This document shows positions 5,193 through 58,685 of a stretch of DNA of 58,685 nucleotides, piece after piece. Below the pieces are notes generated by a model, which saw nothing but the letters and a program-made list of their open reading frames with translations, was not told the origin of the DNA and did no database searches. The position numbers and the translations under genes were made by a program. Position 1 is the stretch's first letter; the number at the start of each line of letters is the position of its first letter. The DNA is from a virus, in IMG/VR virus record IMGVR_UViG_3300027749_004991, positions 1 through 58,685 of that record. One strand, given 5' to 3'.

Positions 5193-5996
5193 ATGTTAGT
5201 ATCTCACGAAACACCTATCAGCTATCTGACTGAATCAAAGCTATACAATGACTACGATTACGCTTTAGTTCATCTATTCGAAACACACCCACAATATTAC
5301 AGGTTCTTTAAATCAAGCTTACTCGAAGGGCGTGAAGTGTTGCTTGATAATTCTATCTTCGAATTGAAAGAAGCGTTTGACTCTGTAAAGTTTGCAAAGT
5401 ATATTGAAGAGCTAAAGCCTACATACTACATCGTTCCTGATGTTCTTGAGGATGTTACAGGTACTGTTAATTCATTTGAGCAGTTTAGACTCGATTATAA
5501 CGATCTACCAGGTCTTAAAATTGGTGCAATTCAGGGCAAGACTTACGATGAAATTGTTGAGTGTTACCGCTATATGGATGTGTTTGCAGATTACATTGCA
5601 ATCTCTTTTGACTTCTCATGGTATCAGCAAATAGGACTTTCATCTAGTTTGAATCCTGATCGCAATAGACTAGAACATATGTGTGATGGAAGAATTAAGC
5701 TCATTAATATGCTTATTAATGATGGTATATGGAATCATAAAAAGCCTCATCACCTTCTTGGATGTTCGCTTGCTAGTGAGTTTGCTGCGTATAAGAATAT
5801 ACCAAGCATTAGATCTATTGATACTTCAAATCCGGTCGTTGGTGGTATCTTGAATAAGCGGTATCTTAAGGGTATTGGATTTAGAGATAAGCCTTCTGTT
5901 CTTCTCGCTGATTTGATTGATCATGTTGTTACTAGTGAACAAGCAGAAGATATTGAACATAACGCAAAGGAATTCAAACATATTATTGGTCGATGA
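5193..5996 (+). CDS. dpdA: DpdA-like DNA guanine transglycosylase
   Basis: A 267-residue protein of the tRNA-guanine transglycosylase superfamily. DpdA enzymes swap guanine in DNA for a 7-deazaguanine base. Visible family-like segments are LLDNSIFEL (about 50), YYIVPDVLED (78-87), GAIQGKTYDE (111-120), HHLLGCS (186-192) and SIDTSNP (208-214), with D83 and D210 as candidate catalytic acids. It is shorter than bacterial Tgt, as phage forms often are. It overlaps the downstream formyltransferase by four bases and shares a cassette with queF. folE, queD, queE and queC elsewhere supply the base. A tRNA substrate cannot be excluded from sequence. Confidence 0.75.
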   Translation: MLVSHETPISYLTESKLYNDYDYALVHLFETHPQYYRFFKSSLLEGREVLLDNSIFELKEAFDSVKFAKYIEELKPTYYIVPDVLEDVTGTVNSFEQFRLDYNDLPGLKIGAIQGKTYDEIVECYRYMDVFADYIAISFDFSWYQQIGLSSSLNPDRNRLEHMCDGRIKLINMLINDGIWNHKKPHHLLGCSLASEFAAYKNIPSIRSIDTSNPVVGGILNKRYLKGIGFRDKPSVLLADLIDHVVTSEQAEDIEHNAKEFKHIIGR

Positions 5997-6535
5997 AGTG
6001 GGCTGCTTTTTATTCTCAAACGGGTTCAGAAATTTGTGATATTTCTGATAAGCTAGGTAGGTATCCAGATCTAATTATAACTGATAATGTAACTGGAGAA
6101 CCTAAAACTGATAGCAGAATTATAAACGCAAAAGCTATCAACACACGTCAATATAAATCTCTGAGTAAGCAAGAAAAGATTGACTATTACAATATTCTAG
6201 ATGGGTACAATATTATAACTTTGCATGGATGGTTAAATATTGTACCTGCAAGTGTATGTAGTAAGTATATGATGTATAATGGTCACCCAGGCCTTATAAC
6301 TTACTATCCGGAGCTGAAAGGAAAGGATCCTCAGGAGAGAGCTTGGGAAAATATGCCTTCGTATATGTATATTGGTAGTGTTATTCATAATGTTACATCT
6401 GAAGTTGACGGTGGCAATGTTGCTGCTCAAAAGAAGAGATTATCAGTAAACTGTACTAGCTTAGACGAGACTTATAAAGAGTTAAAAGAAACTTCTTTGG
6501 AAACATGGGTTGAATTTTTAGAAGATAAACTATAA
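5993..6535 (+). CDS. GART/Fmt-type formyltransferase, candidate dPreQ1 formyltransferase
   Basis: A 180-residue protein with the catalytic signature of 10-formyltetrahydrofolate-dependent formyltransferases. N96 and H98 lie in NGHPGLITYYPELKG, and D139 in IHNVTSEVDGG matches the conserved aspartate of the PurN/Fmt fold. The N-terminal part is divergent. The ATG overlaps the dpdA stop, so the two are translationally coupled. Published work describes a phage enzyme, DpdN, predicted to formylate preQ1 in DNA; the position between dpdA and queF fits that role. A purine- or sugar-formylating enzyme is the alternative. The catalytic assignment is firm; the substrate is inferred. Confidence 0.7.
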   Translation: MKWAAFYSQTGSEICDISDKLGRYPDLIITDNVTGEPKTDSRIINAKAINTRQYKSLSKQEKIDYYNILDGYNIITLHGWLNIVPASVCSKYMMYNGHPGLITYYPELKGKDPQERAWENMPSYMYIGSVIHNVTSEVDGGNVAAQKKRLSVNCTSLDETYKELKETSLETWVEFLEDKL

Positions 6536-6543: not shown

Positions 6544-7122
6544 ATGTTAATTTCATTTTCAGGAGCACAAAGCACAGGTAAAACTACACTTCTTAAGCAT
6601 TTAGAGGAGTGTAATGATGGTGATGATCTTCCATTTAAGTTTGTACCAGAGGTGACAAGATTAGTTAAGCGTGAGTATGATCTACCAATCAATGAAGATG
6701 GTACAGATATTACGCAGCTATTAATTATGGGTGAGCATCTACGTAATGCATATCGAGCTGGCAGTCAAGTTGATTGTAGCTATATTCTAGATAGATGTTC
6801 TCTTGATGGTATCGTTTATACTCATTGGCTTTGCGATCAACACAAAGTAGGTATGAATGTGTATAGCTTTGCTGAATACATCTTTAGCTCTACTATCAAG
6901 AAATATGATGTTATTTTCTATACATCACCAGATGATGTTAAGTTAGAAGCTGATGGAGAGCGTAGCGATAATGTCAAATTCCGTGACGAAATTATCGAAT
7001 TGTTTACGCAGTATATCAAAACACGAAATATCGACGTTGTAATACTAACTGGTACAGTAAAGGAAAGACTACAAACTATCAAAGCTACTTTAGCGAAAAA
7101 GGGACTTGAAATTAATATTTAA
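6544..7122 (+). CDS. P-loop nucleotide kinase-like ATPase (AAA_28/NadR type)
   Basis: A 192-residue P-loop protein. The Walker A motif is at the N-terminus (GAQSTGKTT, residues 7-15), and YILDRCSLDGIVYTHWL near residue 80 is the substrate/lid region seen in NadR- and deoxynucleoside-kinase-like proteins. A paralogue with the same DRCxLD motif is at 33260-33994. Its place between the formyltransferase and queF suggests a link to base or nucleotide metabolism, but the substrate cannot be read from sequence. It has its own promoter inside the preceding gene. Confidence 0.7.
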   Translation: MLISFSGAQSTGKTTLLKHLEECNDGDDLPFKFVPEVTRLVKREYDLPINEDGTDITQLLIMGEHLRNAYRAGSQVDCSYILDRCSLDGIVYTHWLCDQHKVGMNVYSFAEYIFSSTIKKYDVIFYTSPDDVKLEADGERSDNVKFRDEIIELFTQYIKTRNIDVVILTGTVKERLQTIKATLAKKGLEINI

Positions 7123-7139: not shown

Positions 7140-8063
7140 ATGGCACTACAAGAATTAGATAACTCGAATATTAACGTTCACCTTGGTAAGACTTCTTCGT
7201 ATAAATCTCAATACGATCCGAGCTTACTTGTACGTGAACCTCGTCAAACAAACCGAAATCATCTAGGTATTAAGGATGACAATCTTCCGTTCGTAGGTTA
7301 TGATACTTGGAATGGTTACGAAATCTCAGGTCTTACTAACTATGGTTTACCTGCAGTTGGTATTGTGAAGCTTAGTTATTCGTGTGATAGCAAGTATATC
7401 GTTGAGTCGAAGTCTCTTAAGCTGTACTTCAACTCCTTCAATATGACTAATCTTGGCGAAACTGCTCGTGATGTTCTCAAAGAGATTAAGAAGAGAGCTG
7501 TAAAGGATTTGTCTGAGCTGCTTGAAACTACAGTTAGCGTTACTGTTTGCAGTAATGGTGAAGTTCTAGCAGCTAGTAGTATCAACGCTGTGGATGACTG
7601 GCATACACCAGATGTTTTAACTCTTGAAGATACATATCCAGTTGATGGTGTTGAGTTTTCTGTTTATAGTGAGACTCCTGAGTTACTCGAAGTAATAGAA
7701 GATGCTCCAGTTGAAGAAGTTCATTATCATAGTGCTCTACTTAAGTCGAACTGCAGAGTAACTTCACAACCAGACTGGGGTGATGTTTACATCTATATTA
7801 ACTCTAAGAAGACTGTTGATCCTATTTCGTTGTTACAGTATATCGTTTCATTTAGAGATGAATGTCACTTCCATGAAGAGATTTGTGAGACTATCTATAA
7901 GAGACTGTATGATCTTCTTGAACCGAAGGAGCTAAGAGTTAAGTGTCTTTATGCCCGTCGTGGTGGTATCGATATTAACCCGGAAAGAGCTTCTAATGCT
8001 GAATTGCTCTGCGAGATACTTAGTGATACAACTATACCTCATTCTAAGACTCCTAAGCAGTAA
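7140..8063 (+). CDS. queF: NADPH-dependent 7-cyano-7-deazaguanine reductase (QueF)
   Basis: Reduces the nitrile of preQ0 to the aminomethyl of preQ1. At 307 residues it is the long, bimodular type, like E. coli QueF (282). Conserved landmarks are LGKTSSYKSQYDPSLL near the start, NLPFVGYDTWNGYE (48-61), the NADPH/ESK motif ESKSLKLYFNSFNMT (89-103), nucleophile C205 in LLKSNCRVTSQPDWG, and a C-terminal RRGGIDINPERAS. It is the last gene of the dpdA cassette and is followed by a strong terminator. Its presence predicts that preQ1, not only preQ0, reaches DNA or tRNA. Confidence 0.93.
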   Translation: MALQELDNSNINVHLGKTSSYKSQYDPSLLVREPRQTNRNHLGIKDDNLPFVGYDTWNGYEISGLTNYGLPAVGIVKLSYSCDSKYIVESKSLKLYFNSFNMTNLGETARDVLKEIKKRAVKDLSELLETTVSVTVCSNGEVLAASSINAVDDWHTPDVLTLEDTYPVDGVEFSVYSETPELLEVIEDAPVEEVHYHSALLKSNCRVTSQPDWGDVYIYINSKKTVDPISLLQYIVSFRDECHFHEEICETIYKRLYDLLEPKELRVKCLYARRGGIDINPERASNAELLCEILSDTTIPHSKTPKQ

Positions 8064-8083
8064 TTAACTGATTGTAATAAAAG

Positions 8084-8119
8084 CCCTAAATAGTGTAACA
8101 GCTATTTAGGGTTTTTTTT
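8084..8119 (+). terminator. Rho-independent terminator after queF
   Basis: A perfect 10-bp stem (CCCTAAATAG at 8084-8093 with CTATTTAGGG at 8102-8111), an 8-base loop, and eight T's directly after it. Confidence 0.9.
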
Positions 8120-8986: not shown

Positions 8987-9361
8987 TTAATTTTTATCAA
9001 ATTTAATGCTGTTAGGCTTTGTCTCTCTAATATAGACTTCACCATATGCTTCTAATTGACCCATAACATGTTGAAATTCACGCTGAGACATACTCTTCCA
9101 GTCTTTGAGCTTATCCCAGCATGCATCTGCTTTCTTCTCTATGAATGAAACGTCATTCTGATGATCTATACATTCTTGATAAGGCTTTTCTTTAGCCTTA
9201 AAGTGAATAGCTGTTAATACTGCATAACCACCTTTCTTCTGTGATTGATTAGCAATTTTTCTCGCCCCGGCTTGTCTCGTAGTAAGAAAGTCCTGCAGCT
9301 TATCATCTATTGCTGTAATAGACTTCTTAATGGATTCGAGTACTATATCGAACGTAAACAT
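8987..9361 (-). CDS. Conserved-looking phage protein of unknown function
   Basis: A 124-residue mostly helical, charged protein. The start is set at 9361 (MFTFDIVLES) because a perfect late octamer ends five bases upstream; an in-frame extension to 9406 would run back through the promoter. The N-terminus (V-L-E at residues 7-9) faintly resembles the capsid-targeting peptides described for the 41-47 kb genes. The C-terminal half, KADACWDKLKDWKSMSQREF, looks like a helical bundle. No function is recognised. Confidence 0.6.
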   Translation of the reverse strand: MFTFDIVLESIKKSITAIDDKLQDFLTTRQAGARKIANQSQKKGGYAVLTAIHFKAKEKPYQECIDHQNDVSFIEKKADACWDKLKDWKSMSQREFQHVMGQLEAYGEVYIRETKPNSIKFDKN

Positions 9362-9366
9362 ATCAT

Positions 9367-9374
9367 TATTTATA
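9367..9374 (-). promoter_or_regulatory. Late promoter before 9361 start
   Basis: Perfect TATAAATA on the minus strand, five bases (ATGAT), ATG at 9361. Confidence 0.75.
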
Positions 9375-9415
9375 ATGACCCTGGAATATAAACAAAAAAG
9401 AACCACCCCAGCTCG

Positions 9416-9423
9416 ACTAAATA
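9416..9423 (+). promoter_or_regulatory. Late-type promoter before the GIY-YIG gene
   Basis: ACTAAATA, five bases (TTTAC), ATG at 9429. The same ACTAAATA variant precedes gp13 and gp15. Confidence 0.5.
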
Positions 9424-9428
9424 TTTAC

Positions 9429-10208
9429 ATGAGTAAGAAAATTCATGAGCTGTATATCACTAGAAATCTAGTTAATGGGAACGTATATGGTGGCAAACAC
9501 GTATATACAACCAAGAGAGGTAGATATCTTGGATCTGGATATAGATTAAAGAGAGCTATAAAGAAATACGGTATAGAGAATTTCGATGTACGTATTCTAC
9601 GGTTACAAATAGATAATATCGAGGATCTAAATAGAAGAGAAATTAGACTTATTAGACTATTAAAATATATATTTAAAGATCGATGTTATAATATTCATCG
9701 AGGTGGTGTAGGTGGAGACTATTACATGTATCTAGAGCCTGCAGAGCGGTTAGAAGTTAATCGTAAAATAAGTGATAGTAAAAAACGACAGTACGAAGCT
9801 GGGGAAACAGATTTACAACAACAAGGTAGAAAAAAACAAGCAGCGGCGCTAAGAGTCAAAAATAAACTAGACCTAGAGTTTATTGACCGTATGACCGTAA
9901 TACATCGAGAGGCTGGAAAGAGGCTTTCTGATAGGATTGCCAGCTCAGGTCTAACAGATCGTGAGAAAGAGCGTAATAAAAATAATAGTGTAAATGGACT
10001 TAAACAAATTAAATTTAAAATAATTTACCCTAACGGCGATATAATGATTGAAAATATTAGTTCGAAGAAATTTAAAATAAAATATAAAACTGATGACTCA
10101 CTTTTTAGCACTCTAGCTCGTGAAGGTTACTTTATAATAAAGAAAAGATTACCTATTACTAAACATTTATTTCCTAGAGGTACTGAGTTTATTATATTAA
10201 AAGAATGA
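9429..10208 (+). CDS. GIY-YIG homing endonuclease
   Basis: A 259-residue nuclease. The N-terminal GIY-YIG module is visible as YITRNLVNGNVYGGKH, followed by RYLGSGYRLKRAIKKYGIENF, with the family's catalytic-region glutamate likely in NRREIRLIRLL. The middle (RKISDSKKRQYEAGE) resembles a NUMOD3 DNA-binding repeat, and the C-terminus is basic. Such genes are selfish elements that cut a homologous site in related phages. It is inserted, on the opposite strand, between the 8987 gene and gp23, a typical seg-like position. The start at 9429 is chosen from the adjacent late-type octamer; 9375 is an alternative. Confidence 0.85.
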   Translation: MSKKIHELYITRNLVNGNVYGGKHVYTTKRGRYLGSGYRLKRAIKKYGIENFDVRILRLQIDNIEDLNRREIRLIRLLKYIFKDRCYNIHRGGVGGDYYMYLEPAERLEVNRKISDSKKRQYEAGETDLQQQGRKKQAAALRVKNKLDLEFIDRMTVIHREAGKRLSDRIASSGLTDREKERNKNNSVNGLKQIKFKIIYPNGDIMIENISSKKFKIKYKTDDSLFSTLAREGYFIIKKRLPITKHLFPRGTEFIILKE

Positions 10209-22857: not shown

Positions 22858-23520
22858 TTAAACCTTTTTCATATATGTGTCTTTTTTTATTAAGATTGAG
22901 GTAATTGATTTACTTCGATGTATGTCGTCGCTTGAAGTATTGTTATAAAAAATATTACACTCACCTATTTGATTAACAATAGAATTAAGATTGTTAATAT
23001 AAAATCCTCTATCTGTTATAGTCTGCGCTTTAATACATTCAATTAGATTTAGTGTCGTATTATTAGTAGTATTATCTGAATAACCGTATTCATAGCTGGT
23101 ATGTAGATCTTCTAAAATATAAATACCTTTTGATTTTAATCTAGGTAACATTTCTTCTAACGTTACTTGCTGTTGTTCCATTCCATGCCCACCATCATCA
23201 ATTATAATATCAAACTCAATACCAGTAAACAGATTTCGCATATATTCTCTATTAGCTTGGTCACCAACACTCAAGATAAAATCGTTATTTTGATTTAGGT
23301 GAGACTTATCTAAACAATCAATAGCGTAAATTTGCGCGTCTGTAAAATAATCTCTCAAAGTAAAAATAGAGTATCCTTTATCTATACCTATTTCTAAAAT
23401 AGACAATTTATTATCTCGCAAAGGAGTAAAATATTTGTCGTAAATATCTGTAAATCCATGAAAGGTAGCTTTATCAGTACCATAATGTATTCCAATCTCA
23501 GTTAATGTTTTATTTTTCAT
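22858..23520 (-). CDS. SAM-dependent methyltransferase (class I, MycE/Methyltransf_24 type)
   Basis: A 220-residue Rossmann methyltransferase. IHYGTDKATFHGFTDIYDKYF opens the protein (given in part; residues about 12-32). LSILEIGIDKGYSI is motif I, AIDCLD the acidic loop, SVGDQANREY and FDIIIDDGGHGMEQQ later motifs, and YILEDLHTSY motif V. This arrangement is known from sugar O-methyltransferases in glycan clusters. It is the last gene of the glycosyltransferase operon, so it may cap or decorate a glycan. The substrate is unknown. Confidence 0.8.
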   Translation of the reverse strand: MKNKTLTEIGIHYGTDKATFHGFTDIYDKYFTPLRDNKLSILEIGIDKGYSIFTLRDYFTDAQIYAIDCLDKSHLNQNNDFILSVGDQANREYMRNLFTGIEFDIIIDDGGHGMEQQQVTLEEMLPRLKSKGIYILEDLHTSYEYGYSDNTTNNTTLNLIECIKAQTITDRGFYINNLNSIVNQIGECNIFYNNTSSDDIHRSKSITSILIKKDTYMKKV

Positions 23521-23523
23521 AAA

Positions 23524-24156
23524 TTATTTCAAAATAGATTTACACTTTTTTATAAAATTATCACTACTTTTACGTATTTCAAATTGATGGTATAATACTT
23601 CTATATTATTATAACTATATGTAGTACCAATACCGAAGTCTCTATCATCAGTTAATTTCCATTTTGGAATCTCCGATGATGAAGCTCTAAATAATTTTAC
23701 TTCAAAATTATTTTCTTCGCATAGCCATGTTAACTCTTCACCCACATCACTTCTATCACCCTGCTGCATTAAAGAAGGGCAACCTAACTTTTTAAATAAT
23801 GCTGTAGGAAAAGCAAGGCAAGCTGGGCCAGCGTATATATGATTATAAGGATTACAATTACACATCTGCTCTATACCTATAATGCAGTCATTACCTTTTA
23901 ATTCATCGAGAATTATATCATATAGGTTAGGTACAAGGGGTATACAATCAACATCAAAAAAAATAATATACTCACTACTACAGTCTTTTGCTACTTCTGT
24001 TAAAAAGTCTCCGTGATTTGAATTTACCTTTACCTGTAACACAGGTAAATTAAATTTTGCAAAAACCGCTCGTTGTAACTCACATACTTCATCTTGTATA
24101 TTCAAATTAGCATACGAAAAAGCTTCAAGTAATGATTTATTAATATTTTCTTTCAT
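23524..24156 (-). CDS. GT-A-like glycosyltransferase
   Basis: A 210-residue protein. YIIFFDVDCIPL (about 63-74) carries a D-V-D motif of the type that binds the metal and nucleotide-sugar in GT-A enzymes. GEELTWLCEENNF later resembles the acceptor-side acid region. It is shorter than complete family 2 enzymes and lacks an obvious N-terminal nucleotide-binding strand, so it may be a trimmed GT-A domain. It overlaps the next gene by four bases in the glycan operon. Confidence 0.6.
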   Translation of the reverse strand: MKENINKSLLEAFSYANLNIQDEVCELQRAVFAKFNLPVLQVKVNSNHGDFLTEVAKDCSSEYIIFFDVDCIPLVPNLYDIILDELKGNDCIIGIEQMCNCNPYNHIYAGPACLAFPTALFKKLGCPSLMQQGDRSDVGEELTWLCEENNFEVKLFRASSSEIPKWKLTDDRDFGIGTTYSYNNIEVLYHQFEIRKSSDNFIKKCKSILK

Positions 24157-24773
24157 TGAATTAAAGACGGTAGTTTACCCTCTGCTGATTTTTGAAGTAA
24201 TCCAGGCTCCGTCCAACCTGATATTATTATTTTATTAGCTATAATCTCGTTGTATAAATGATCTATAGGTTGGTTGTAATGATAGTTGTCAAGTACTAAC
24301 TTAGCCCCTTGCTGACTTATTATATACGCATGTGTGCATCTCGAAAAACAATTATCAGAAAAAAAAGAAATTTCAGTAGGTATCTTTTTTTCTATTGGTA
24401 TTGAGTATTTACCCACCCACACATCTCCAATCCATAATATATCACCTGTTTTTGCTTGTAGATCGTCAATACTTTGCTCAAGAAATTCTTGAATTTTAGG
24501 AACACTTTGCAAGTCTACATCATCTTCAAAAATTATTCCATACTGAATTTCGTTTTGTATTATTTGCTGTAGAACATATTGATGTTTAAGCGATAAAGAG
24601 AGTTCGCTAATCCTAATGCTAGCACTGATACCTTCAATTTCCTCTGGCAGAAAACCTTCTATCCACTCTATAGAGTAAGGTAAGTTTACTGCGCCGATAT
24701 CAGCTAACAAGGTATTTTTACGCTCTACAGCAGGTGTGTGATGTAAAATAAAGATTTTTATTTGATTATACAC
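24153..24773 (-). CDS. Family 25-like glycosyltransferase
   Basis: A 206-residue protein with the family 25 (LPS-type) pattern: FILHHTPAVERKNTLL at the start, WIEGFLPEEIEGI, LSLSLKHQYVLQQI, the metal-binding GIIFEDDVDL (E-D-D) and a late HAYIISQQGAKLVLDN with PIDHLYNE. These enzymes add galactose or related sugars to LPS-like or protein glycans. The start is GTG at 24773, overlapping the upstream stop. One of 11 glycosyltransferase-like genes in a row. Confidence 0.75.
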   Translation of the reverse strand: MYNQIKIFILHHTPAVERKNTLLADIGAVNLPYSIEWIEGFLPEEIEGISASIRISELSLSLKHQYVLQQIIQNEIQYGIIFEDDVDLQSVPKIQEFLEQSIDDLQAKTGDILWIGDVWVGKYSIPIEKKIPTEISFFSDNCFSRCTHAYIISQQGAKLVLDNYHYNQPIDHLYNEIIANKIIISGWTEPGLLQKSAEGKLPSLIQ

Positions 24774-25530
24774 GTTTTAACATTATATGCGGTTTATTTG
24801 TTTTATTCGGTCTCAATTCATAATCATAAAACCAAGTATTTTCGCCCTCTAGCTGAATTTGTTCCCAAAGAGGCTTTATATTAGTGTAATATAAAGCGAT
24901 TATACCTTGATCATTTGTCTTTGAAATTTTACACTCTTCTGCTAACTCTACTAAGTCAGTAAACGTCTTTTCATCTAAGATAGATGTATCATAAAGCATA
25001 ATTGTCGTTTGTGGAAAGTCTACACCAAAATTATATTTTTTAGATAGTTCAAAAAATAATGGATCTTCCTTTATAAACTGAAATTCTAAGTTATAATTAT
25101 AATCCGGGTAAGCATCTGAATGAGCTAAAAATTTTCCTTCTCGTCTAGCATTAACGATGGGCATTATTGAACTATAAACTTTCATTCCTGAATCAATATA
25201 AAATACATAATCCCACTGTTTAAAAAAAGTATTAAACAGATTTAGTTTATGGTATTGAAACTTTTTACAGCGCCAGTACTCTTCACGTGGCATTGAATTA
25301 AATTTTTCATTAAAATCATCTGTAAAAATAATATCAGGAAAATGCTTAATAGTAATGCTAGCTTGTTTTAATAAATTATGATTTAATTTATCTGAGTTTA
25401 CTAAATCGTCGCCTATTACAACACATATATCACCTACATACTCATAAGATAATATACTACTAAGTGTTTGTATTAAACGATCAAAAAAAGCATCATTTGT
25501 TACAAGAACTGTGCAAATAGTTTTATTCAT
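24766..25530 (-). CDS. Family 8-like glycosyltransferase
   Basis: A 254-residue protein. KFQYHKLNLFNTFFKQWDYV and FYIDSGMKVYSSI (about 93-125) resemble glycogenin-type enzymes, with D-S-G in place of the usual D-x-D. Residues near 200 (KTNDQGIIALYY) match the distal motif of that group. It overlaps the family 25-like gene. Family placement is tentative; glycosyltransferase identity is more secure than family. Confidence 0.6.
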   Translation of the reverse strand: MNKTICTVLVTNDAFFDRLIQTLSSILSYEYVGDICVVIGDDLVNSDKLNHNLLKQASITIKHFPDIIFTDDFNEKFNSMPREEYWRCKKFQYHKLNLFNTFFKQWDYVFYIDSGMKVYSSIMPIVNARREGKFLAHSDAYPDYNYNLEFQFIKEDPLFFELSKKYNFGVDFPQTTIMLYDTSILDEKTFTDLVELAEECKISKTNDQGIIALYYTNIKPLWEQIQLEGENTWFYDYELRPNKTNKPHIMLKRV

Positions 25531-25533
25531 AGA

Positions 25534-26160
25534 TTATTTCTCTTTAATATATAAAGCATCACCCCATGCTTGACTATCGATATCTAAAACGGTCTCAACT
25601 CTCTTAAAATTATACTTACCGAGAAAATAATCAAGGTCTTCAATAAGAGCGCAGTTTTTATACAGTTCATCTGTGTTAACTTCGGTTAAAATATACTGTA
25701 TATTTTCTAGTGTACTTGATGCACCTAAAAGAACAGTTAACTCAGCTCCCTGTACATCCATATTCAAGAAATTTAGAGCTGGGCTAGGTTGAAATTTATC
25801 AAGTGGCTCAACCTTTACAGTATCTTTATTTGTAAAAACGATACCTGGGTATATATGTGTATGTTTAAAGGGTTCTAAAATAGAATTTGATTGACCGTCT
25901 TGATTAGGTGTTCTATGAAGTGTAGCTTCACATGAAAACGGTCCAAGAGCTTTGTTGATACAAATAACCTTTTCATCGTGAGATGTTTTCTCTTTTAATT
26001 TTTTAAAACTATCCTTATCAGGTTCGAAAAATATAATACTATCTATCGAATTTATACTCTTATATGTATAATATTCTTCGCCATGATGTCCGCCAACATG
26101 AATAACACCAGTAATATTCATATTATACTTTTTAATAGCTGTATGTAAGTCTACCATCAT
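25534..26160 (-). CDS. FkbM-type methyltransferase
   Basis: About 208 residues from the ATG-ATG pair at 26160. FkbM landmarks: GVIHVGGHHGEEYYTY (motif I), IIFFEPDKDSFKKLKE, VEPLDKFQ and the distinctive LNMDVQGAELTVLLGA. FkbM enzymes O-methylate sugars or polyketides, and they are common in glycan clusters. An upstream in-frame TTG at 26184 is a less likely start. It is the second methyltransferase of the operon. Confidence 0.85.
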   Translation of the reverse strand: MMVDLHTAIKKYNMNITGVIHVGGHHGEEYYTYKSINSIDSIIFFEPDKDSFKKLKEKTSHDEKVICINKALGPFSCEATLHRTPNQDGQSNSILEPFKHTHIYPGIVFTNKDTVKVEPLDKFQPSPALNFLNMDVQGAELTVLLGASSTLENIQYILTEVNTDELYKNCALIEDLDYFLGKYNFKRVETVLDIDSQAWGDALYIKEK

Positions 26161-26198
26161 AATTATTAATTTATTTACAATCAATTTTTATATATCCA

Positions 26199-26969
26199 CT
26201 ACATCCACGATCCATGCCATAAATGACAGCAGTATGTTTCTGATGTTAAGTATTTACTAAAATCTGATCCTAAATCTCTACAGCTAGGACAATTAGGAAA
26301 CGGGTACAGGAACAGGTTAGGTAAAACAACAAAATTAGTAAATTTATCTTTGTTTTTGAAAATTTTACTTGTTATTAGTCCTTGACCAGTTGTATTTATG
26401 ATATCCATACCATCACCGTGTAACATTGGCGTTTCTAAAACTTGCATATCTAAGATTAGTTCATTTCTCGGACTACTACCCATGACACTATTTGATACGT
26501 TAGGTGTATTATCATACACTATACCTGCAAAAAAATCTAAATCCAACAGATCATCAAAAGATTTATTAAGAACAAAATCTGTATCACAGTATACACCACC
26601 ATATTCACATAATATGTGTAAACGTAGTAGGTCTGACTTTTGACCTACATTAGGTGTTTGGTTAAAAAGTTCTAGTTGTGTGAAATTAGTGAGCTGGTTA
26701 ACGTCTTCATCACGCCATAATTTATACACCCAGTCGGATGGAAGGGCATTTTTAACGCGGTGACAGTGCTCCACTTCTCTTTCAGGCATAAAGTTACCTA
26801 ACCATATTTGGTGTAATATTTTAGGTATTTTTTGCTCTTGAGGTTCTCTATTCTGAATTTCTATATACTTCTTTTCAAAGAACTCCCATTTATCAAAATC
26901 TGTTTTATATACATTATAATTACGACTAAATCTCATCGATTCATCAAAAGTAGGCCAATTAGTTTTCAT
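26199..26969 (-). CDS. Family 32-like glycosyltransferase (DXD sugar transferase)
   Basis: A 256-residue protein of the OCH1/capsular polysaccharide DXD group: KIPKILHQIWLG (about 47-58), LRLHILCEYGGVYCDTDFVL with the D-T-D metal site, a central GSSPRNELI, and a terminal HLWHGSWM. These transfer mannose, galactose or related sugars. It overlaps the upstream gene by four bases. The match is strong. Confidence 0.85.
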   Translation of the reverse strand: MKTNWPTFDESMRFSRNYNVYKTDFDKWEFFEKKYIEIQNREPQEQKIPKILHQIWLGNFMPEREVEHCHRVKNALPSDWVYKLWRDEDVNQLTNFTQLELFNQTPNVGQKSDLLRLHILCEYGGVYCDTDFVLNKSFDDLLDLDFFAGIVYDNTPNVSNSVMGSSPRNELILDMQVLETPMLHGDGMDIINTTGQGLITSKIFKNKDKFTNFVVLPNLFLYPFPNCPSCRDLGSDFSKYLTSETYCCHLWHGSWM

Positions 26970-27754
26970 AGAATTTCTTTTTCTGAGTCGTTAAGATATT
27001 TTTCATTAACATTGAGATGTGTTAAGTCCAAATTTAAGTATAGAGATGTAACAGATACATTAGAGGAAGATCTTATCAGATGTTTACACTTTGACAATAA
27101 AATTACGTCAGTAAGAACATTAAGACCTTTTATATAGCCAGATAGATCTTTAAAGTTATTATGAATACTTCTTGTACTATTACCACGTATTGCATTGATA
27201 TTATAAATTACTTTCTTACCGTATTGTTCCTTAATATAATTAACAGCATCAATGCAATCTGTTGCTAAGTAGATGTAATCATAACTATTCACTACTTTAT
27301 CTATTTCTTGTTTAAAAATATCTAAATCAACCGGTGCATGTTTATAAGTAGTGCCATACATACCTACTAAAAATTTATCTGTACGTCTTATATGTACACC
27401 TAATATTTTGTTTTCTTCAAATAACTTATAATTAGGTGATAGTTTTTCTTCTATAGAGTCATTTAGAACAAAATAATTTTTGTAGATGTAGTTCATTGTT
27501 GATCTAAAACTATTATCTTTTAGTAATATCAACTCTGTGTAATCTTGAACTACTTGAGCAGGTTCTTTCAAATCATGAATTTGTTTGAAATAATACTCCC
27601 ATACATTACTACCACGTGCCGAATCATAATATAGCGTTTCATCACCCCACATAACGAACCACTTTTCATTATTGTTTATACACTGTGATATATGACGCGC
27701 TGTATCATTTGAAACAGCAAAGAATCCTTTATCTGTACCTTTAATTACTTTCAT
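26966..27754 (-). CDS. Fucosyltransferase-like glycosyltransferase (GT-B, HxRRTD)
   Basis: A 262-residue protein with GVHIRRTDKFL (about 127-137), the GDP-fucose-binding H-x-R-x-x-D element of O-fucosyl/alpha-1,6-fucosyltransferase-type folds. YIYLATDCIDAVNYIKEQYG follows it, and a late LLSKCKHLIRSSSNVSV matches the C-terminal donor-binding region. It is adjacent to and one base overlapping a family 11-like fucosyltransferase, so GDP-fucose is a plausible donor for both. No GDP-fucose biosynthesis gene is seen in the window. Confidence 0.65.
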   Translation of the reverse strand: MKVIKGTDKGFFAVSNDTARHISQCINNNEKWFVMWGDETLYYDSARGSNVWEYYFKQIHDLKEPAQVVQDYTELILLKDNSFRSTMNYIYKNYFVLNDSIEEKLSPNYKLFEENKILGVHIRRTDKFLVGMYGTTYKHAPVDLDIFKQEIDKVVNSYDYIYLATDCIDAVNYIKEQYGKKVIYNINAIRGNSTRSIHNNFKDLSGYIKGLNVLTDVILLSKCKHLIRSSSNVSVTSLYLNLDLTHLNVNEKYLNDSEKEIL

Positions 27755-28554
27755 TATCTTAAATCTATGTATTTGTGATTAGGGCTTTGAATCAATAGAT
27801 CAACTCCATTATACGGGTCGATTCTATTATTACCTTTCGTAGGTATTGCATTAATGATGTTCTTACCTTCGCTGAATAGGCTAGCCCAGAAGCTAAATGA
27901 ACCAACACTTAAAACAGAATTGTTATGCGAGGCAAGAAAGCAGATTGTCTCTCTTTCATTACCAGTAAAAATTTGAGCGTTATACTTTTTAATTAAAGGT
28001 AGTATATATTCACTATCTGTTGGTGTATCAGTACAAATAGTAAGTTTGTTAAAATTAATCATATCTAGTGCCTTATGATAATACTCTACAGGTAAAAGAT
28101 CGGGGTGATTAGTTTCTCTCAAATCACCCAACCTTATGTGTATAGCTGCGTGATCAGAAGGTATATCATAATTAATAAAATTGTACCAGTCCTTAATTTG
28201 TTCTTTATACGGTAAGAAGTATTTTTTTCTCTGAAAGAATCCTTCGAGTATAATTCTTCTAGGGGTAGGGTCATTACAGACCACCTCTAAATCAACATCT
28301 GGATGCGCCCATTCGAGCGTTTCTGTGTAATTATAATTGCTACTTGTCCCTATTCTCTGTACTGGATTCTCGTAATATGCATAACCCGGTTGATTATAAT
28401 TTAATTCAAATCCATTCATAGAGAATTCTCTATGATTTTGATCTATTCCGAATAATTTAAATTTTAACCTTTCGGATATAATTCGCCCGATCATGTGCTG
28501 ACACAACTGGTTTCCGTGTCTAGATCCGGAAATATGATTAACAATAACACTCAT
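27754..28554 (-). CDS. Family 11-like fucosyltransferase
   Basis: A 266-residue protein. SGSRHGNQLCQHMIGRII at the N-terminus corresponds to the G-x-x-G-N-Q motif of family 11, AIHIRLGDL (about 137-145) is the H-x-R-x-G-D donor motif, LTICTDTPTD follows, and SVGSFSFWASLFS is the C-terminal signature. These enzymes attach fucose in alpha-1,2 linkage. An ACTAAATC box five bases before the ATG resembles the late octamer, so this part of the cluster may be switched on late. Confidence 0.75.
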   Translation of the reverse strand: MSVIVNHISGSRHGNQLCQHMIGRIISERLKFKLFGIDQNHREFSMNGFELNYNQPGYAYYENPVQRIGTSSNYNYTETLEWAHPDVDLEVVCNDPTPRRIILEGFFQRKKYFLPYKEQIKDWYNFINYDIPSDHAAIHIRLGDLRETNHPDLLPVEYYHKALDMINFNKLTICTDTPTDSEYILPLIKKYNAQIFTGNERETICFLASHNNSVLSVGSFSFWASLFSEGKNIINAIPTKGNNRIDPYNGVDLLIQSPNHKYIDLR

Positions 28555-28559
28555 AATAT

Positions 28560-28567
28560 GATTTAGT
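28560..28567 (-). promoter_or_regulatory. Candidate late-type promoter within glycosyltransferase cluster
   Basis: ACTAAATC on the minus strand, five bases (ATATT), ATG at 28554. One base off the ACTAAATA variant, and the only intergenic gap (40 bases) in this part of the cluster. Confidence 0.35.
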
Positions 28568-28594
28568 TTTTAAATATAATAATGCAATTACTAA

Positions 28595-29449
28595 TTACCA
28601 GTAACACCCTCCTTCTATATTCTTATAAAATTGAGGCGTCTCTTCTATAGAAGGATATACCCATGAATCATTATAAAAATACTTGCCGATATTAGAGTTA
28701 TTCCATCTTTCGCCTTTTATACCGAATAGAATTTGCAGTGGACCTCCTAGGTGAATACCTTTCTTTCCGTTCTTTTTAGCGTGCGCTACAAGTGGAAGCG
28801 ATGTAGCACCTGCACCTACAAGCAAAACATCATACTGTATATTATCCATCTGCCTTTTTAAATCTGCTACCATCTCTAACCAACTAGCATACTCACTAGG
28901 TGTATCTATACCTGGTGAGTGCTGATGTTTTATTGTTATAAGTTCAAAATCTGGTAGAATGCGCTTATCGTCCCATATCTTATCACGTTTAGTATACTGC
29001 GACTTTATTGTCTCGATAAAAGGCGAAATAACTAATACACATTTACCCTTTAAATGCTCCGTCCATGGTGAACCTGAATAAAAAGGCTCTAAGCTTTGAA
29101 GGTCAATTAGTACACTTTTATTATTATAGCTTTTAATTATATTATATTCAAAATCTCTATTAAAAGACGACCACAACGGTAACGAGTCTATGTAAGGCAG
29201 ACTGTTAGAGATTTCTTTAATAAAGTCTACTCTAGATTTTTCTGTCTGCGGAAAAACTCCTGCATTTTCATATATCTCTTTCTCTACCACTGACCACCAC
29301 TTAACTGGTAATCCCTTAGATGTATATTCATAATAATTACTGATACACATTAATTCACAATTTCCAATCTTCCCACAGGCGAATGGAGCATCAGTTTTAA
29401 ATTGTTCATTTAAATAAAAACTACCATCAACGAAATTTATGTTACTCAT
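28595..29449 (-). CDS. GT-D-like glycosyltransferase (DUF1792-like)
   Basis: A 284-residue protein. The C-terminal half contains DVLLVGAGATSLPLVAHAKK, KKGIHLGGPLQILFGIKGER and W. This pattern is seen in GT-D-type proteins of bacterial glycan clusters and environmental viruses. The N-terminal half has GKIGNCELMC, matching the D/E-containing donor-site region of that fold. Fold-level assignment is moderate and the sugar is unknown. Confidence 0.55.
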   Translation of the reverse strand: MSNINFVDGSFYLNEQFKTDAPFACGKIGNCELMCISNYYEYTSKGLPVKWWSVVEKEIYENAGVFPQTEKSRVDFIKEISNSLPYIDSLPLWSSFNRDFEYNIIKSYNNKSVLIDLQSLEPFYSGSPWTEHLKGKCVLVISPFIETIKSQYTKRDKIWDDKRILPDFELITIKHQHSPGIDTPSEYASWLEMVADLKRQMDNIQYDVLLVGAGATSLPLVAHAKKNGKKGIHLGGPLQILFGIKGERWNNSNIGKYFYNDSWVYPSIEETPQFYKNIEGGCYW

Positions 29450-29454
29450 AATTA

Positions 29455-30300
29455 TTAAGCTTGTAAAATTTGTAATATACGAGTTGACATACCGTTCATA
29501 GTAAAATATTTGTTATACACACGTTTACCATTTTGAAGCATTTCTTCATATTGTTGATCGGTTATACTTTCTAAAATAGTCTTTAGCTTGTCAATGTTAT
29601 CTATATGCAGAGTAACACAAAAACTATTCCAATCAATTACATCATTAAATGGAAACCATTCTTTATCGTAAATAACTACAGGTACAGTGTTTAACTGTAA
29701 CACTTCATATAATCTAAAACTCTGCGCCCCGTAACCTCTAGGACATAGAGAAAATTTTGAACGTTTAGTTATATCTATAAAAGTATTAAAGCTATCTTCG
29801 CTAACTGTACTCGTCCAGTTCTTGCCCAAAATTAAGAAAGAACTATCATTTGAGTATCGGTTATATATTTCGGTTCTGATACTATGTGTAATAGAACCTA
29901 CAAATGAACAGAATATATCTTTTTGTACGAGTTGTGTTTTTTGCTCATCAATTGGAGAACATATTAACGGTATAGGTATACCGTTTCCATTACCACCAGC
30001 TTCAAAACTTAAAGTACCTATCGGTAATTGCTCTTTTACCGCATCATCATGTTGCGATACAGTAAAATATTTGCCTACAGGAAGTGAGTCTAAGTAAGGT
30101 TGAACTAAATTAACATTTTTATTTGTAATATACACATTAGTCCAAAAGATAGGTATTAGAGTGTATCCTGTCTTATCAAATTCATTTTTATGCTCCTTAT
30201 AAAAACTATAAAAATGTTCTTCCAGATAATTACCTGTATGGTATGGTGGATATACTGGATAATCTGCTGGTGGTCTTAGATTTTTAAAATCAATGATCAT
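29455..30300 (-). CDS. Exostosin-family glycosyltransferase (family 47-like)
   Basis: A 281-residue protein with a GT-B C-terminal half. IFCSFVGSITHSIRTEIYNR (about 130-149) opens the donor domain, KFSLCPRGYGAQSFRLYEVL is the classic exostosin signature, and TVPVVIYDKEWFPFNDVIDW follows. Family members build glucuronic or xylose-containing glycans in eukaryotes and varied capsular glycans in bacteria and viruses. It overlaps the upstream gene by four bases. Confidence 0.8.
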   Translation of the reverse strand: MIIDFKNLRPPADYPVYPPYHTGNYLEEHFYSFYKEHKNEFDKTGYTLIPIFWTNVYITNKNVNLVQPYLDSLPVGKYFTVSQHDDAVKEQLPIGTLSFEAGGNGNGIPIPLICSPIDEQKTQLVQKDIFCSFVGSITHSIRTEIYNRYSNDSSFLILGKNWTSTVSEDSFNTFIDITKRSKFSLCPRGYGAQSFRLYEVLQLNTVPVVIYDKEWFPFNDVIDWNSFCVTLHIDNIDKLKTILESITDQQYEEMLQNGKRVYNKYFTMNGMSTRILQILQA

Positions 30301-30989
30301 GAGAGCTTATTACGTACAATATTAAGTAATTTTAGTTTATTGTCAATACCAGCTGTCCAGTTAGCATGGTGAATAACTATATCTTCTGGCACATCAAAAT
30401 CAGGTGCATCAGGTGTCCAGCTTCCTCTATATGGGTCTGGTCCAGTTGTTGGTATTGCAGCAATATGACCATACGTCCAGTATTTTGCAGGTAAAAAAGC
30501 CCAATCTATAGCTATTGCTGGATAACGTGCAGAGTTAGTTAGTAGGTGGTTTGCAAGCACTTGCTCTTGACTAAAGGAATCTAAATTACCTAGCACAGTC
30601 TTAAAGAAGGATCGAATTTTTTGTGTATTTTTAACAGCGAAAAACCCTGTGTTAACACCGCCAAATACATCGTTTTGAAATATAGCTTCTTTATTAGCTA
30701 AGCCGCTAATAATATCATCGTAAAAATCACCGAAAAATTGAATATCAGGATCTATAAACATAAAGATCTCTTCATCTGAACATTGATTAATACCTTCAAT
30801 AAAGCAATTAACTTTATCACGCATTGTATCATGCCAACCATCTGTTTCAAAACTAGCTGTTTTACATTTTTGAGGTCTATGTAAGATAGTTAATTCTATT
30901 TCTTCACGATATGGAAACGTCGGTATGAAATAATCTGTTAAAAACTTTTTATGTGAATCTGTAAATAATGTATAAGCTTTAATTTTCAT
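30297..30989 (-). CDS. Nucleotide-sugar transferase, GT-A type
   Basis: A 230-residue protein. EIFMFIDPDIQFFGDFYDDI (about 73-92) has the D-x-D metal motif, and GGVNTGFFAVKNTQKIRSFF later resembles the nucleotide-diphospho-sugar transferase group (family 77-like). IVIHHANWTAG at the end supplies the C-terminal His found in that group. It overlaps both neighbours by four bases, which indicates tight translational coupling. Confidence 0.7.
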   Translation of the reverse strand: MKIKAYTLFTDSHKKFLTDYFIPTFPYREEIELTILHRPQKCKTASFETDGWHDTMRDKVNCFIEGINQCSDEEIFMFIDPDIQFFGDFYDDIISGLANKEAIFQNDVFGGVNTGFFAVKNTQKIRSFFKTVLGNLDSFSQEQVLANHLLTNSARYPAIAIDWAFLPAKYWTYGHIAAIPTTGPDPYRGSWTPDAPDFDVPEDIVIHHANWTAGIDNKLKLLNIVRNKLS

Positions 30990-32401
30990 TTTAGATTAAA
31001 TTGTTTATGTTGTCGTTCTATGAACGTCTGTTTATCTATACCTTCGTATGTTTCGTTTTGTATATACGTTTCATCCATTTCACTGTTTAATACTGAATGA
31101 TGTTCGTGTTTAATAATAACTTGATCAAAATACTTTTGTCTGTTTAACAAGTTACCAACCATTGTAAATTCCATATCACACCATAACGATTTGTACTCAG
31201 GATGATAAATGTACCCAAACCTATTATAATATGATCTACCTAGAATGCAAAGAGTGTTAAGTCTATTTTGTTGGACACCGTCATTAAACCATACAATACC
31301 ATCGAAATCTGGAAAAGTATCACACATCGACTTTATTATAATATCGTCATACCCACGTACAACAGGAACCATATCATCCGACGCTAGCAATAATATCTGA
31401 AAATCTTGTTTATTTACGTTTGAGTTTATTGCTTCTATCTTAGTTCTACTATTACCATATTCTACTTCTAGGTTTTGATAACCTTTGAACTTTTCGCGAA
31501 CTTGAGTATTGTTCATAGTGACATCATCAACATCACAAGTTACAAAGAACTTTACTTTACGTTTACCTGATAGTAAATAGTAGTATTTGTCTAATGTGTT
31601 AAAAAATTTATCAGGTCTACCTCTCGTTGGGAATTTAATTAAGAATGTTGGTTCTTCATAGATAAATTTGTTGGATACTTTTACATCTTTATACTGCTGT
31701 TTAAGTTGTAAAAATGAATTATACTTTTGATCGTATGCATGAACAAACGCAGCATTATTATGTGTACCTCCAAAATCTATCCCAGTATCTTCTTTCGTAC
31801 TATCGAATTTGTTTTTATACCAACTCATTCCTTCAAGATGAATGTAATACTTACCGCTTAAGTCTACGTTACCTATTTTCAGACCAGCTTGTTTGACATC
31901 TGCTAAGAATGTAGAACCGATATCATATATCTTATCGGTCTTAAAGCTTTCTAACATTCTCTCTTTATCAAAGAAAATAATTCCATGCTGCTTTATCTTT
32001 TCAACATCTATAAAGCAATGCCACGGGTTAACTCTATTATAGATATGTTTACCTCCCCGATCACCTTCGACCTTACCCATTAAGGTCAGTCCCGTATCTT
32101 TGAATTGCTGAAAAACATCACTATGATCTCGCAAGAAAATAACATCAGTATCAACAAGAAGTGCATATTTTGTTTTGCATAACTCAAGTGCTTTATTCAC
32201 ACCATCACCATGACTTATACCTGGTAAAGATACATACGGAATCTTATGATCATATAATAGATTTTTTGTATCACTATTAGTTGAGTTTTCACAAACAACT
32301 AACCTTTGTGTTTTATTGTGAACATGCATCCACGACTTTAACATTGTTAATGTTATGTCTGGGGTATTGTATGAGCAAGTAATTAATGTTAGATCTTCCA
32401 T
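30986..32401 (-). CDS. Tandem two-domain family 2-like glycosyltransferase
   Basis: A 471-residue protein with two GT-A-like halves. The first begins LTLITCSYNTPDITLTML and has ALLVDTDVIFL with D-T-D (about 92). The second begins FLIKFPTRGRPDKFFNTLDK near residue 252 and has LLLASDDMVPV (S-D-D). Each could be an active site, so the protein might add two sugars or alternate linkages, as in bifunctional polysaccharide synthases. It is the largest gene in the cluster and overlaps its upstream neighbour by 13 bases. Confidence 0.75.
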   Translation of the reverse strand: MEDLTLITCSYNTPDITLTMLKSWMHVHNKTQRLVVCENSTNSDTKNLLYDHKIPYVSLPGISHGDGVNKALELCKTKYALLVDTDVIFLRDHSDVFQQFKDTGLTLMGKVEGDRGGKHIYNRVNPWHCFIDVEKIKQHGIIFFDKERMLESFKTDKIYDIGSTFLADVKQAGLKIGNVDLSGKYYIHLEGMSWYKNKFDSTKEDTGIDFGGTHNNAAFVHAYDQKYNSFLQLKQQYKDVKVSNKFIYEEPTFLIKFPTRGRPDKFFNTLDKYYYLLSGKRKVKFFVTCDVDDVTMNNTQVREKFKGYQNLEVEYGNSRTKIEAINSNVNKQDFQILLLASDDMVPVVRGYDDIIIKSMCDTFPDFDGIVWFNDGVQQNRLNTLCILGRSYYNRFGYIYHPEYKSLWCDMEFTMVGNLLNRQKYFDQVIIKHEHHSVLNSEMDETYIQNETYEGIDKQTFIERQHKQFNLK

Positions 32402-33225
32402 TTTTGTTTAATGTGTTTGAGATTAGTAATTACATCTTCCTTTGAAGTGTGTGGTGTCATGTTTGGGTATACACCATGAATATTTTTATACAACTCTCTA
32501 CCAGTAGTGATATTAGCTAGCCATTGTTGTTTATTTTGAGATGTAGAACTATTTTTAATAGCATCTTCCTGTACATGAATATAATCTACACTGTTAGCAA
32601 TATCTGCAAACCACCAAAACGGTGGATGCCCTTTTTCGAGAATGATTCTATATGTATGCTCAACATGCTCCCAAGCATTTATAAAATCCTCATTGTTCAA
32701 TCCAACAGTGCTGAGTATCTTTTTTGTAAAGAAGCTAAATAAACCTGCGCAGTGTTCATATAGGTCGATAACAACAGTATCGTAATCAATAGTCAACTTA
32801 GGTGCTGGTGTTGAAATATTCGATAATTGATCTCTGTTATGTAAGTCAAAATTTTGTATTAATTGTTTACGGTTAAACGGAGAACCCGGACCAAAATTAA
32901 AGTGCTGTATACCGCTTACTTTACTAGCTTGAATATACTTATCAAACACAGCGTCATCGAGGATAACTACATCATCTTCAATAATAAAAATGTAATCACA
33001 CCCTTTATCAAGTAGGCATTGCATAGCTTTATTCTTTGACTTACCAACACCTAGATTAGTTTCATTATGTTGGATATAATAGTTATATCCTTCACATTCA
33101 ATCGGATCTCCATCGTTAATAATAACTAGTTCAGCCCAGTTACAACCTTTAATACTATCTAATAAAGCTCTAAGATAATCAGGTCTATTGTAAGTAACAA
33201 TACCTATTCCGACTTTTTCTTCCAT
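32389..33225 (-). CDS. Family 2 glycosyltransferase, first gene of the cluster
   Basis: A 278-residue GT-A enzyme: VGIGIVTYNRPDYLRALLDS at the N-terminus, ELVIINDGDP (donor binding), GVGKSKNKAMQCLLDKGCDY, and IFIIEDDVVIL with the E-D-D metal site. GLNNEDFINAWEHVEHTYRI supplies the acceptor-side acid. It opens the 10.4-kb block of 13 co-directional glycan genes. No strong promoter of either class is evident just upstream. Confidence 0.85.
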   Translation of the reverse strand: MEEKVGIGIVTYNRPDYLRALLDSIKGCNWAELVIINDGDPIECEGYNYYIQHNETNLGVGKSKNKAMQCLLDKGCDYIFIIEDDVVILDDAVFDKYIQASKVSGIQHFNFGPGSPFNRKQLIQNFDLHNRDQLSNISTPAPKLTIDYDTVVIDLYEHCAGLFSFFTKKILSTVGLNNEDFINAWEHVEHTYRIILEKGHPPFWWFADIANSVDYIHVQEDAIKNSSTSQNKQQWLANITTGRELYKNIHGVYPNMTPHTSKEDVITNLKHIKQKWKI

Positions 33226-37438: not shown

Positions 37439-38050
37439 TTAGCCCCATGATGTTCCAGCAAACCAATTACCCTTACCAGTAGAAACGTTTGAACCTACTA
37501 GAGCACCTTGGCTTGCGGTTACTGTAGGCTGCGGTTGAGCTTGAACTGGTTGCTCAGGTAACGATTCGTTTGATACTTCGTTAGTATCCCCTTCTTCAGT
37601 ATTCTGATCATACATGCTATAAGTTGCAGAGTTATCTGCATGCTCAAAGACTTCAACTTTTTCAAGCCAGCAGCGACCAGCCGTGAGACTCTTAATATAC
37701 TCCTGAGTCAGTTTAAATACAACTTCTGAAGTTCTTTCAATACCAACACCATCTGGGAATACTCTCAGCTGAATAATACCCTTTCTATCTAGATCGCGAA
37801 ATGTTTCAAGATCAGGATCATCACCTGCTACACAAGTAGTATGATCAAATACTTCCTGAAGCTTTGCTTTCAGTCCTTTCAAGCCACCGAAGTCAACTAG
37901 CCAGTTCTTATCGTCGAGACTAGATCCACCAAACCAGAACTTAGCGATCAGCTGATATCCGTGAAGGAATCTACACATAGAATGGCTAGCTCTCCACTGT
38001 CTAAATGCACAAGAACCTAACTCAATTACCTTTGTTGATTGATATTTCAT
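37439..38050 (-). CDS. queD: 6-carboxytetrahydropterin synthase (QueD), phage type
   Basis: A 203-residue protein. The first 140 residues match QueD/6-PTPS: FRQWRASHSMCRFLHGYQL with catalytic-region C26, zinc-type H23 and H30, NWLVDFGGLKGLKAKL, a VFDHTT motif and VEVFEHADNSATY. The third zinc His of the usual H-G-H is Tyr32 here. A disordered Q/P/N/S-rich tail of about 60 residues follows, absent from bacterial QueD. Converts H2-neopterin triphosphate to CPH4. Overlaps the upstream gene by 29 bases. Confidence 0.85.
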   Translation of the reverse strand: MKYQSTKVIELGSCAFRQWRASHSMCRFLHGYQLIAKFWFGGSSLDDKNWLVDFGGLKGLKAKLQEVFDHTTCVAGDDPDLETFRDLDRKGIIQLRVFPDGVGIERTSEVVFKLTQEYIKSLTAGRCWLEKVEVFEHADNSATYSMYDQNTEEGDTNEVSNESLPEQPVQAQPQPTVTASQGALVGSNVSTGKGNWFAGTSWG

Positions 38051-39738: not shown

Positions 39739-40374
39739 ATGAATGATATTCCATTTTCAAATAGTAACATTACCCTAACAGATACAGAAAAAGCAAAGCG
39801 AATTAATAAAGCAGCAGAACACTTCGGTAAGTTTATGAATGTTTTAGGGTTTGATTTCAAGAACGACCCTAACTCAATTGAGACTCCAAAGAGAGTAGCA
39901 AAAGCTATAATGCATGATTTATGCTCTGGATGTTTTACTTCACCGCCTAATATTACAGCTTTTGATAACGTCGATCAGTATGATGGCATTGTATGTCAAA
40001 ATAACATTAAATTAGCATCAATCTGCGCTCATCACTGGCTTCCGTTTACAGGTACTGCACATGTTGCTTATATTCCCTCAAAAGACGGTAAGGTAATAGG
40101 TCTTAGCAAATTAAATAGAATTGTTGATTGGTTCGCTCGTAGACCTCAAGTGCAAGAAAATTTAACGATGCAAATTCATAACTTTATCGATGGAGTTTGT
40201 GAAAATAATAATGGAGTAGCTGTAATGATAGAAGCAAACCATACCTGTTGCTCTTTAAGAGGTATTAAGCATGATAGCTCTATGCGTACTGCAAGAATGT
40301 CAGGTGCATTTTTAGATAATAACGATAATAGTAGAGCGGAATTCTATAAGTTTATAGAATTTGCTAATAAATAA
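39739..40374 (+). CDS. folE: GTP cyclohydrolase I (FolE)
   Basis: A 211-residue enzyme that opens GTP to dihydroneopterin triphosphate, the first step to both folate and 7-deazaguanine. The zinc motif is [11 protein letters not shown] (usually C-E-H-H; Ala replaces Glu here). [20 protein letters not shown] is the substrate loop, and [13 protein letters not shown] supplies the third zinc ligand. [11 protein letters not shown] near residue 55 is the folE helix. In this phage it feeds QueD; folate for the formyltransferase may also benefit. Confidence 0.95.
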
Positions 40375-58533: not shown

Positions 58534-58685
58534 AAAATAAGTTAGTATTATTATTTAGCGGAGGAGCTGATAGCACAGTATTACTGTATATGGCTGCCGA
58601 CCAAGGTTATAAAGAAATTCATACTGTTACATTTGATTATGGTCAAAGACACAGTAGAGAAATGGCTTGTATTCCGAGGCAGATA
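58530..58685 (+). CDS. queC: 7-cyano-7-deazaguanine synthase (QueC), N-terminal part
   Basis: Fifty-two codons are visible before the right edge. [20 protein letters not shown] is the ATP-pyrophosphatase P-loop (S-G-G-x-D-S), followed by the QueC-typical [15 protein letters not shown]. It converts CDG to preQ0 with ATP and ammonia. The ATG overlaps the uvsX stop (ATGA). With it the window holds every step from GTP to preQ1. Confidence 0.92.

Follow-up and report, generated by a model that had tools for sequence, protein, structure and literature searches.

A phage formyltransferase linked to dpdA and queF: a probable DpdN-type enzyme for a formylated 7-deazaguanine in DNA

A formyltransferase gene that overlaps dpdA in an uncultured phage raises the question of what its product formylates. 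The stretch of DNA analysed here (the window) is a linear record of 58,685 bases from an uncultured virus with T4-like genes, and it is probably a fragment. From protein comparisons and gene context we infer the substrate, product and function of the enzyme, and we consider it highly probable that it is a DpdN-type, 10-formyl-tetrahydrofolate-dependent formyltransferase making 2'-deoxy-7-(formylamino)methyl-7-deazaguanosine in the phage DNA. A DpdN-type enzyme formylating dPreQ1 had been proposed in an earlier note on this DNA, and the proposal gains support from the near-complete linkage with dpdA and queF, the changed GAR-contacting positions and the lack of orthology to PurN or ArnA.

The gene is a 180-aa ORF whose ATG (5993-5995) shares an ATGA with the TGA of dpdA (5994-5996), a 4-nt overlap that bears out the overlap described in the earlier note. 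The cassette with dpdA and queF that had also been described there is present as follows, with a P-loop kinase gene, which that note does not mention, between the formyltransferase and queF:

5193..5996, + strand: dpdA, putative DNA guanine transglycosylase (DpdA3-like), 267 aa; phrog_19058, 3e-57; 51% identity to DpdA of Flavobacterium phage immuto
5993..6535, + strand: probable DpdN-type formyltransferase, 180 aa; PF00551, 4e-8; PurN fold; monophyletic phage family
6544..7122, + strand: P-loop kinase (AAA_28; NadR/deoxynucleoside/thymidylate kinase-like), 192 aa; PF13521, 1.7e-17
7140..8063, + strand: queF, preQ0 nitrile reductase giving preQ1; TIGR03138, 1.2e-76; 46% identity to immuto QueF
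8079..8116, + strand: terminator-like hairpin, 16 pairs with a T tail; consensus match only

Since the gene upstream of dpdA lies on the opposite strand and the hairpin follows queF, the four genes look like a single transcription unit, closed by this terminator-like element; three such hairpins were found in the region against 1.6 expected, and this one is a consensus match only. The SNC, ESKS and FHEE motifs are common to the QueF proteins of the window and of immuto.

With queF, the following genes mean that a route from GTP through preQ0 to preQ1 is encoded in the window, queC being cut by the contig end:

35694..36452, - strand: queE (7-carboxy-7-deazaguanine synthase); TIGR03963, 1.7e-13, under the curated cut-off; profile made with immuto QueE
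37439..38050, - strand: queD (6-carboxytetrahydropterin synthase); TIGR03367, 6e-6, under the curated cut-off
39739..40374, + strand: folE (GTP cyclohydrolase I); NF006824, 3.9e-51
58539..58685, + strand: queC, 5' part only, cut by the window end; PF06508, 1.7e-14; SGGADS motif

This route (FolE, QueD, QueE, QueC, QueF) fully explains FolE, and the role in supplying the folate donor that the earlier note suggested for FolE is not supported as such. A search of the window for a FolD-type enzyme found none, and the host presumably supplies 10-formyl-THF. In QueE, an extra loop separates the second cysteine from the third (CX3CX11C in place of CX3CX2C); relatives of this QueE have inserts of other lengths, and some have no nearby third cysteine. 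Just downstream of queE lies a 209-aa ORF (35000-35629, - strand) with no family match.

Pfam matched the formyltransferase to Formyl_trans_N (PF00551) at 33.7 bits, above the cut-off of 26.1 (E-value = 4e-8), and its predicted structure (pLDDT 94, pTM 0.89) superposed on the PurN structure 4s1n with Z 21.2 and an rmsd of 2.0 over 169 residues. The positions that matter for catalysis and for comparison with PurN are:

6023..6031, + strand: G11-S12-E13 loop; GSN in PurN (phosphate loop for GAR)
6278..6286, + strand: N96-G97-H98, with the catalytic Asn (codon 6278-6280) and His (codon 6284-6286)
6407..6409, + strand: D139, catalytic Asp

By alignment N96, H98 and D139 correspond to N106, H108 and D144 of E. 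coli PurN, and all three are invariant in 65/65 distinct members of the family. The intact signature read in the earlier note thus holds, and formyltransferase chemistry should therefore be intact.

To see how far the gene and its neighbours travel together, IMG/VR was scanned with the window and immuto sequences, and 369 contigs were found to encode a relative. The best 80 of these were taken, and the comparison used 65 representatives at 90% identity; a few of the 65 came from a separate dpdA scan and are biased towards dpdA, but the loci picked by formyltransferase similarity alone (L003-L082) give the same picture. A dpdA gene was present in all 42 representatives with at least 7.5 kb upstream, and within 1 kb in 48 of the 59 with at least 900 bp upstream. 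Downstream, where at least 2 kb were available, queF was found in 62 of 63 representatives (within 2 kb in 60) and the kinase in 60 of 63. The genes usually run in the order dpdA, formyltransferase, kinase, queF. With 369 contigs encoding a relative and the order conserved, the cassette is not due to chance. Departures are few: in one group (L010) unrelated genes separate the formyltransferase from a dpdA about 6 kb upstream, and L050 has the same genes rearranged. The one locus with no match, L082, has no dpdA within its 10 kb and starts, by eye, with a queC-like ORF about 2.3 kb from the formyltransferase. As a control, no annotated dpdA or que gene lies within 6 kb of PurN in three cyanophages. 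In three loci (L061:2331-3239, L063:8919-9824 and L065:65-976) the formyltransferase ORF is longer (about 303 aa), being extended by about 120 aa at its C-terminus, and the ORF in L063 has a match to phrog_1485 (function unknown, 1.5e-7).

Among 50,697 phage records, a relative at E-value ≤ 0.01 was found only in the Flavobacterium phage immuto isolates. A pattern search of bacterial and archaeal genomes returned no relatives at the sensitivity of that search, and positions 1-25000 of the window have no DNA-level relatives among phages. The dpdA, kinase and queF genes also occur in many contigs lacking the formyltransferase, so formylation is optional. A family-specific search of 18 formyltransferase-negative contigs, which are fragments, came back empty; one true positive (G023) escaped the Pfam search of whole records, whose negatives are therefore weak.

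Flavobacterium phage vB_FspM_immuto_2-6A (NC_055915, gp206-gp202) has the same order of DpdA, formyltransferase, kinase and QueF, with identities to the window of 51, 42, 35 and 46%, respectively. It differs from the window in a small ORF between dpdA and the formyltransferase gene, and in having queD, queE and folE just upstream of the cassette, whereas in the window they are about 28-34 kb away. The depositors annotated DpdA and QueF in immuto, and labelled the formyltransferase homologue PurN. Formylated dPreQ1 has reportedly been found in phage DNA by Cui et al. in 2023, who are said to have predicted DpdN as the dPreQ1 formyltransferase; its authors reportedly include the Baltic Sea phage group, which isolated immuto. 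Immuto is the only isolated phage in the phage collection with a relative of the formyltransferase, and is therefore the likely source of DpdN. DpdN is likewise reported to be a phage formyltransferase accompanying DpdA and QueF, with the predicted product 2'-deoxy-7-(formylamino)methyl-7-deazaguanine. The window record comes from a different, uncultured T4-like phage, and its gene, likened to DpdN on that description, is best called a new member of the known, predicted DpdN kind.

If the enzyme were instead an auxiliary PurN raising purine synthesis in the host, a role proposed for cyanophages, it would stand in this cassette by accident. Its nearest annotated families are indeed PurN (phrog_9240, TIGR00639), its model adopts the fold of PurN (Z 21 against PurN structures), fold and N/H/D triad are common to it and to PurN (PDB 4s1n, 5cjj and 1cde; cyanophage PurN), and the immuto homologue carries the depositors' PurN label. 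However, it scores 38.2 bits with TIGR00639 against a curated cut-off of 150.1. A tree was built from 65 family members less than 90% identical to each other (the window protein and 64 phage relatives) and a comparison set of PurN, Fmt, ArnA and PurU from E. coli, PurN from three cyanophages and four more PurN-like proteins encoded in phage records. All family members fall into one clade (support 100/100), set off by a long stem from the four E. coli enzymes and from the PurN of cyanophages. Where PurN has a GSN loop the family has GSE: E13 occurs in 65/65 members and N in 8/8 of the PurN-type proteins compared, and the position of PurN E173 is S in 64/65. We take PurN N13 and E173 to contact the phosphate and ribose of GAR, so that GAR-contacting positions are replaced family-wide. 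The gene neighbours also differ from those of PurN, dpdA and queF being near-constant, and a PELKGKDPQ stretch is specific to the family. The enzyme should thus work like PurN chemically, yet without the substrate features of PurN, and the auxiliary role is very improbable. PurN identity was rejected on the score (38 bits against 150), the separate clade and the changes N13 to E and E173 to S. Orthology to ArnA or Fmt was likewise rejected: besides the separate clade (100/100), the domain match spans the protein to its end at residue 180 by structure comparison, and the C-terminal substrate domain of ArnA, Fmt and the sugar enzymes is absent. Orthology to PurN/ArnA-type enzymes, which the earlier note had named as speaking against its proposal, was accordingly looked for and is contradicted by score, clade and GAR positions. 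The signature of the GSE loop, S168 and PELKGKDPQ separates the family from PurN, the current label of the immuto homologue.

Sugar N-formyltransferases have the same fold and give weak sequence matches (VioF, PseJ), and the window has a glycosyltransferase-like block at about 23-33 kb, which would suit an enzyme formylating another amine, e.g., that of an amino sugar. We give this very little credence, as the protein consists of one 180-aa domain, lacks the C-terminal part that sugar enzymes have, and is linked to dpdA and queF. A further reading, in which the formyl group on preQ1 is an intermediate that is then reduced or elaborated into some other final base, could draw on the kinase in the cassette and on several loci with room for extra genes between dpdA and queF. 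The kinase, however, is also found in loci lacking the formyltransferase, as well as in Campylobacter phage CP21, and is thus untied to formylation, and casual, unsystematic inspection noticed no further gene keeping company with the formyltransferase; this reading is therefore improbable. The block itself (22858-33225, - strand) is by eye a dense run of at least 10 glycosyltransferase- and methyltransferase-like genes in a row.

The DpdN-type reading is preferred because fold and triad are intact, the linkage to dpdA and queF is close, the clade is separate and N13 and E173 are replaced, and because immuto has the same order with DpdA and QueF annotated by its depositors. It is also favoured by the near-constant company of queF, which supplies the amine for formylation: in Campylobacter phage CP21 (CP21_069, CP21_068) a DpdA 43-45% identical to that of the window is followed by the same kind of kinase, but unlike in the window no formyltransferase was detected and there is no queF near the DpdA-like gene. 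That cyanophage PurN genes have no annotated dpdA or que genes nearby points the same way. Under the DpdN-type reading, FolE, QueD, QueE and QueC would convert GTP to preQ0, which QueF would reduce to preQ1; the DpdA3-like transglycosylase would exchange guanine in DNA for the 7-deazaguanine base, and the formyltransferase would formylate the aminomethyl nitrogen of preQ1, with 10-formyl-THF as donor. The formyl cap would remove the positive charge of preQ1 and add bulk in the major groove, presumably blocking restriction enzymes by analogy with other 7-deazaguanines (PMC6884629). Whether the enzyme acts on preQ1 already in DNA or on the free base is nearly balanced, with a slight lean towards DNA. 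Action after insertion is suited by the occurrence of the same DpdA family without the formyltransferase in many contigs, while the acidic protein (net charge -4; family median -3), not basic, does not favour DNA as substrate. If the DpdN-type reading is right, formylated 7-deazaguanine is predicted in the DNA of hundreds of uncultured phage contigs.

The transglycosylase is 51% identical by global alignment to the immuto protein annotated as DpdA, and shares 43-45% identity with a hypothetical protein found in Campylobacter phages CP21/CP220, which we take to be DpdA3; DpdA1 and DpdA2 are those of phages 9g and nt-1. In tblastn the window protein matched Campylobacter phages (E-value = 5e-53); Escherichia and Vibrio phage records gave no match at E-value ≤ 1e-3. 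DpdA3 has been reported to allow complete guanine replacement in Campylobacter phages. There was no Pfam TGT match, and hhalign with E. coli TGT gave E-value = 0.018 and a probability of 2.5%, although the IQGxxYD and LGC/LMG motifs occur in order. As the statistical similarity to TGT is weak, the link rests on annotation and motifs. In the DpdA tree, formyltransferase-positive and -negative loci are split by one change (support 74), which vertical descent therefore explains, and which speaks for neither base nor DNA as substrate; three segregating columns (88, 89 and 222) may reflect only that descent. Campylobacter phages are highly modified with dADG, though no DpdA had been recognised there (Hutinet et al., 2019; PMC6884629).

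A kinase related to that of the window (6544-7122; noted also in L091-L162 and at L170:9819-10361) is present in 147 of 150 loci holding both DpdA and QueF, including loci without the formyltransferase, and in CP21 it directly follows the DpdA3-like gene. Its tie to dpdA is closer than that of the formyltransferase, and the same data point to it as a constant partner of DpdA3. A fold search gave NadR and thymidylate kinases as best matches. One could go further and see the dpdA3 cassettes as one widespread system, with the kinase as an unrecognised true part of it (e.g., acting in the reuse of a 7-deazaguanine deoxynucleoside or nucleotide by phosphorylating it) and the formylated base replacing most or all genomic guanine, which we regard as conceivable but rather unlikely. 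A second AAA_28 P-loop kinase (33260-33994, - strand), related to the first (profile E-value = 1e-9), adjoins the glycosyltransferase-like block.

Elsewhere in the window, a PADLOC search returned no defence system. ORFs resembling GIY-YIG homing endonucleases were seen by eye at 9330-10208 (+ strand) and 47011-47442 (- strand), one of which adjoins the apparent major capsid gene.
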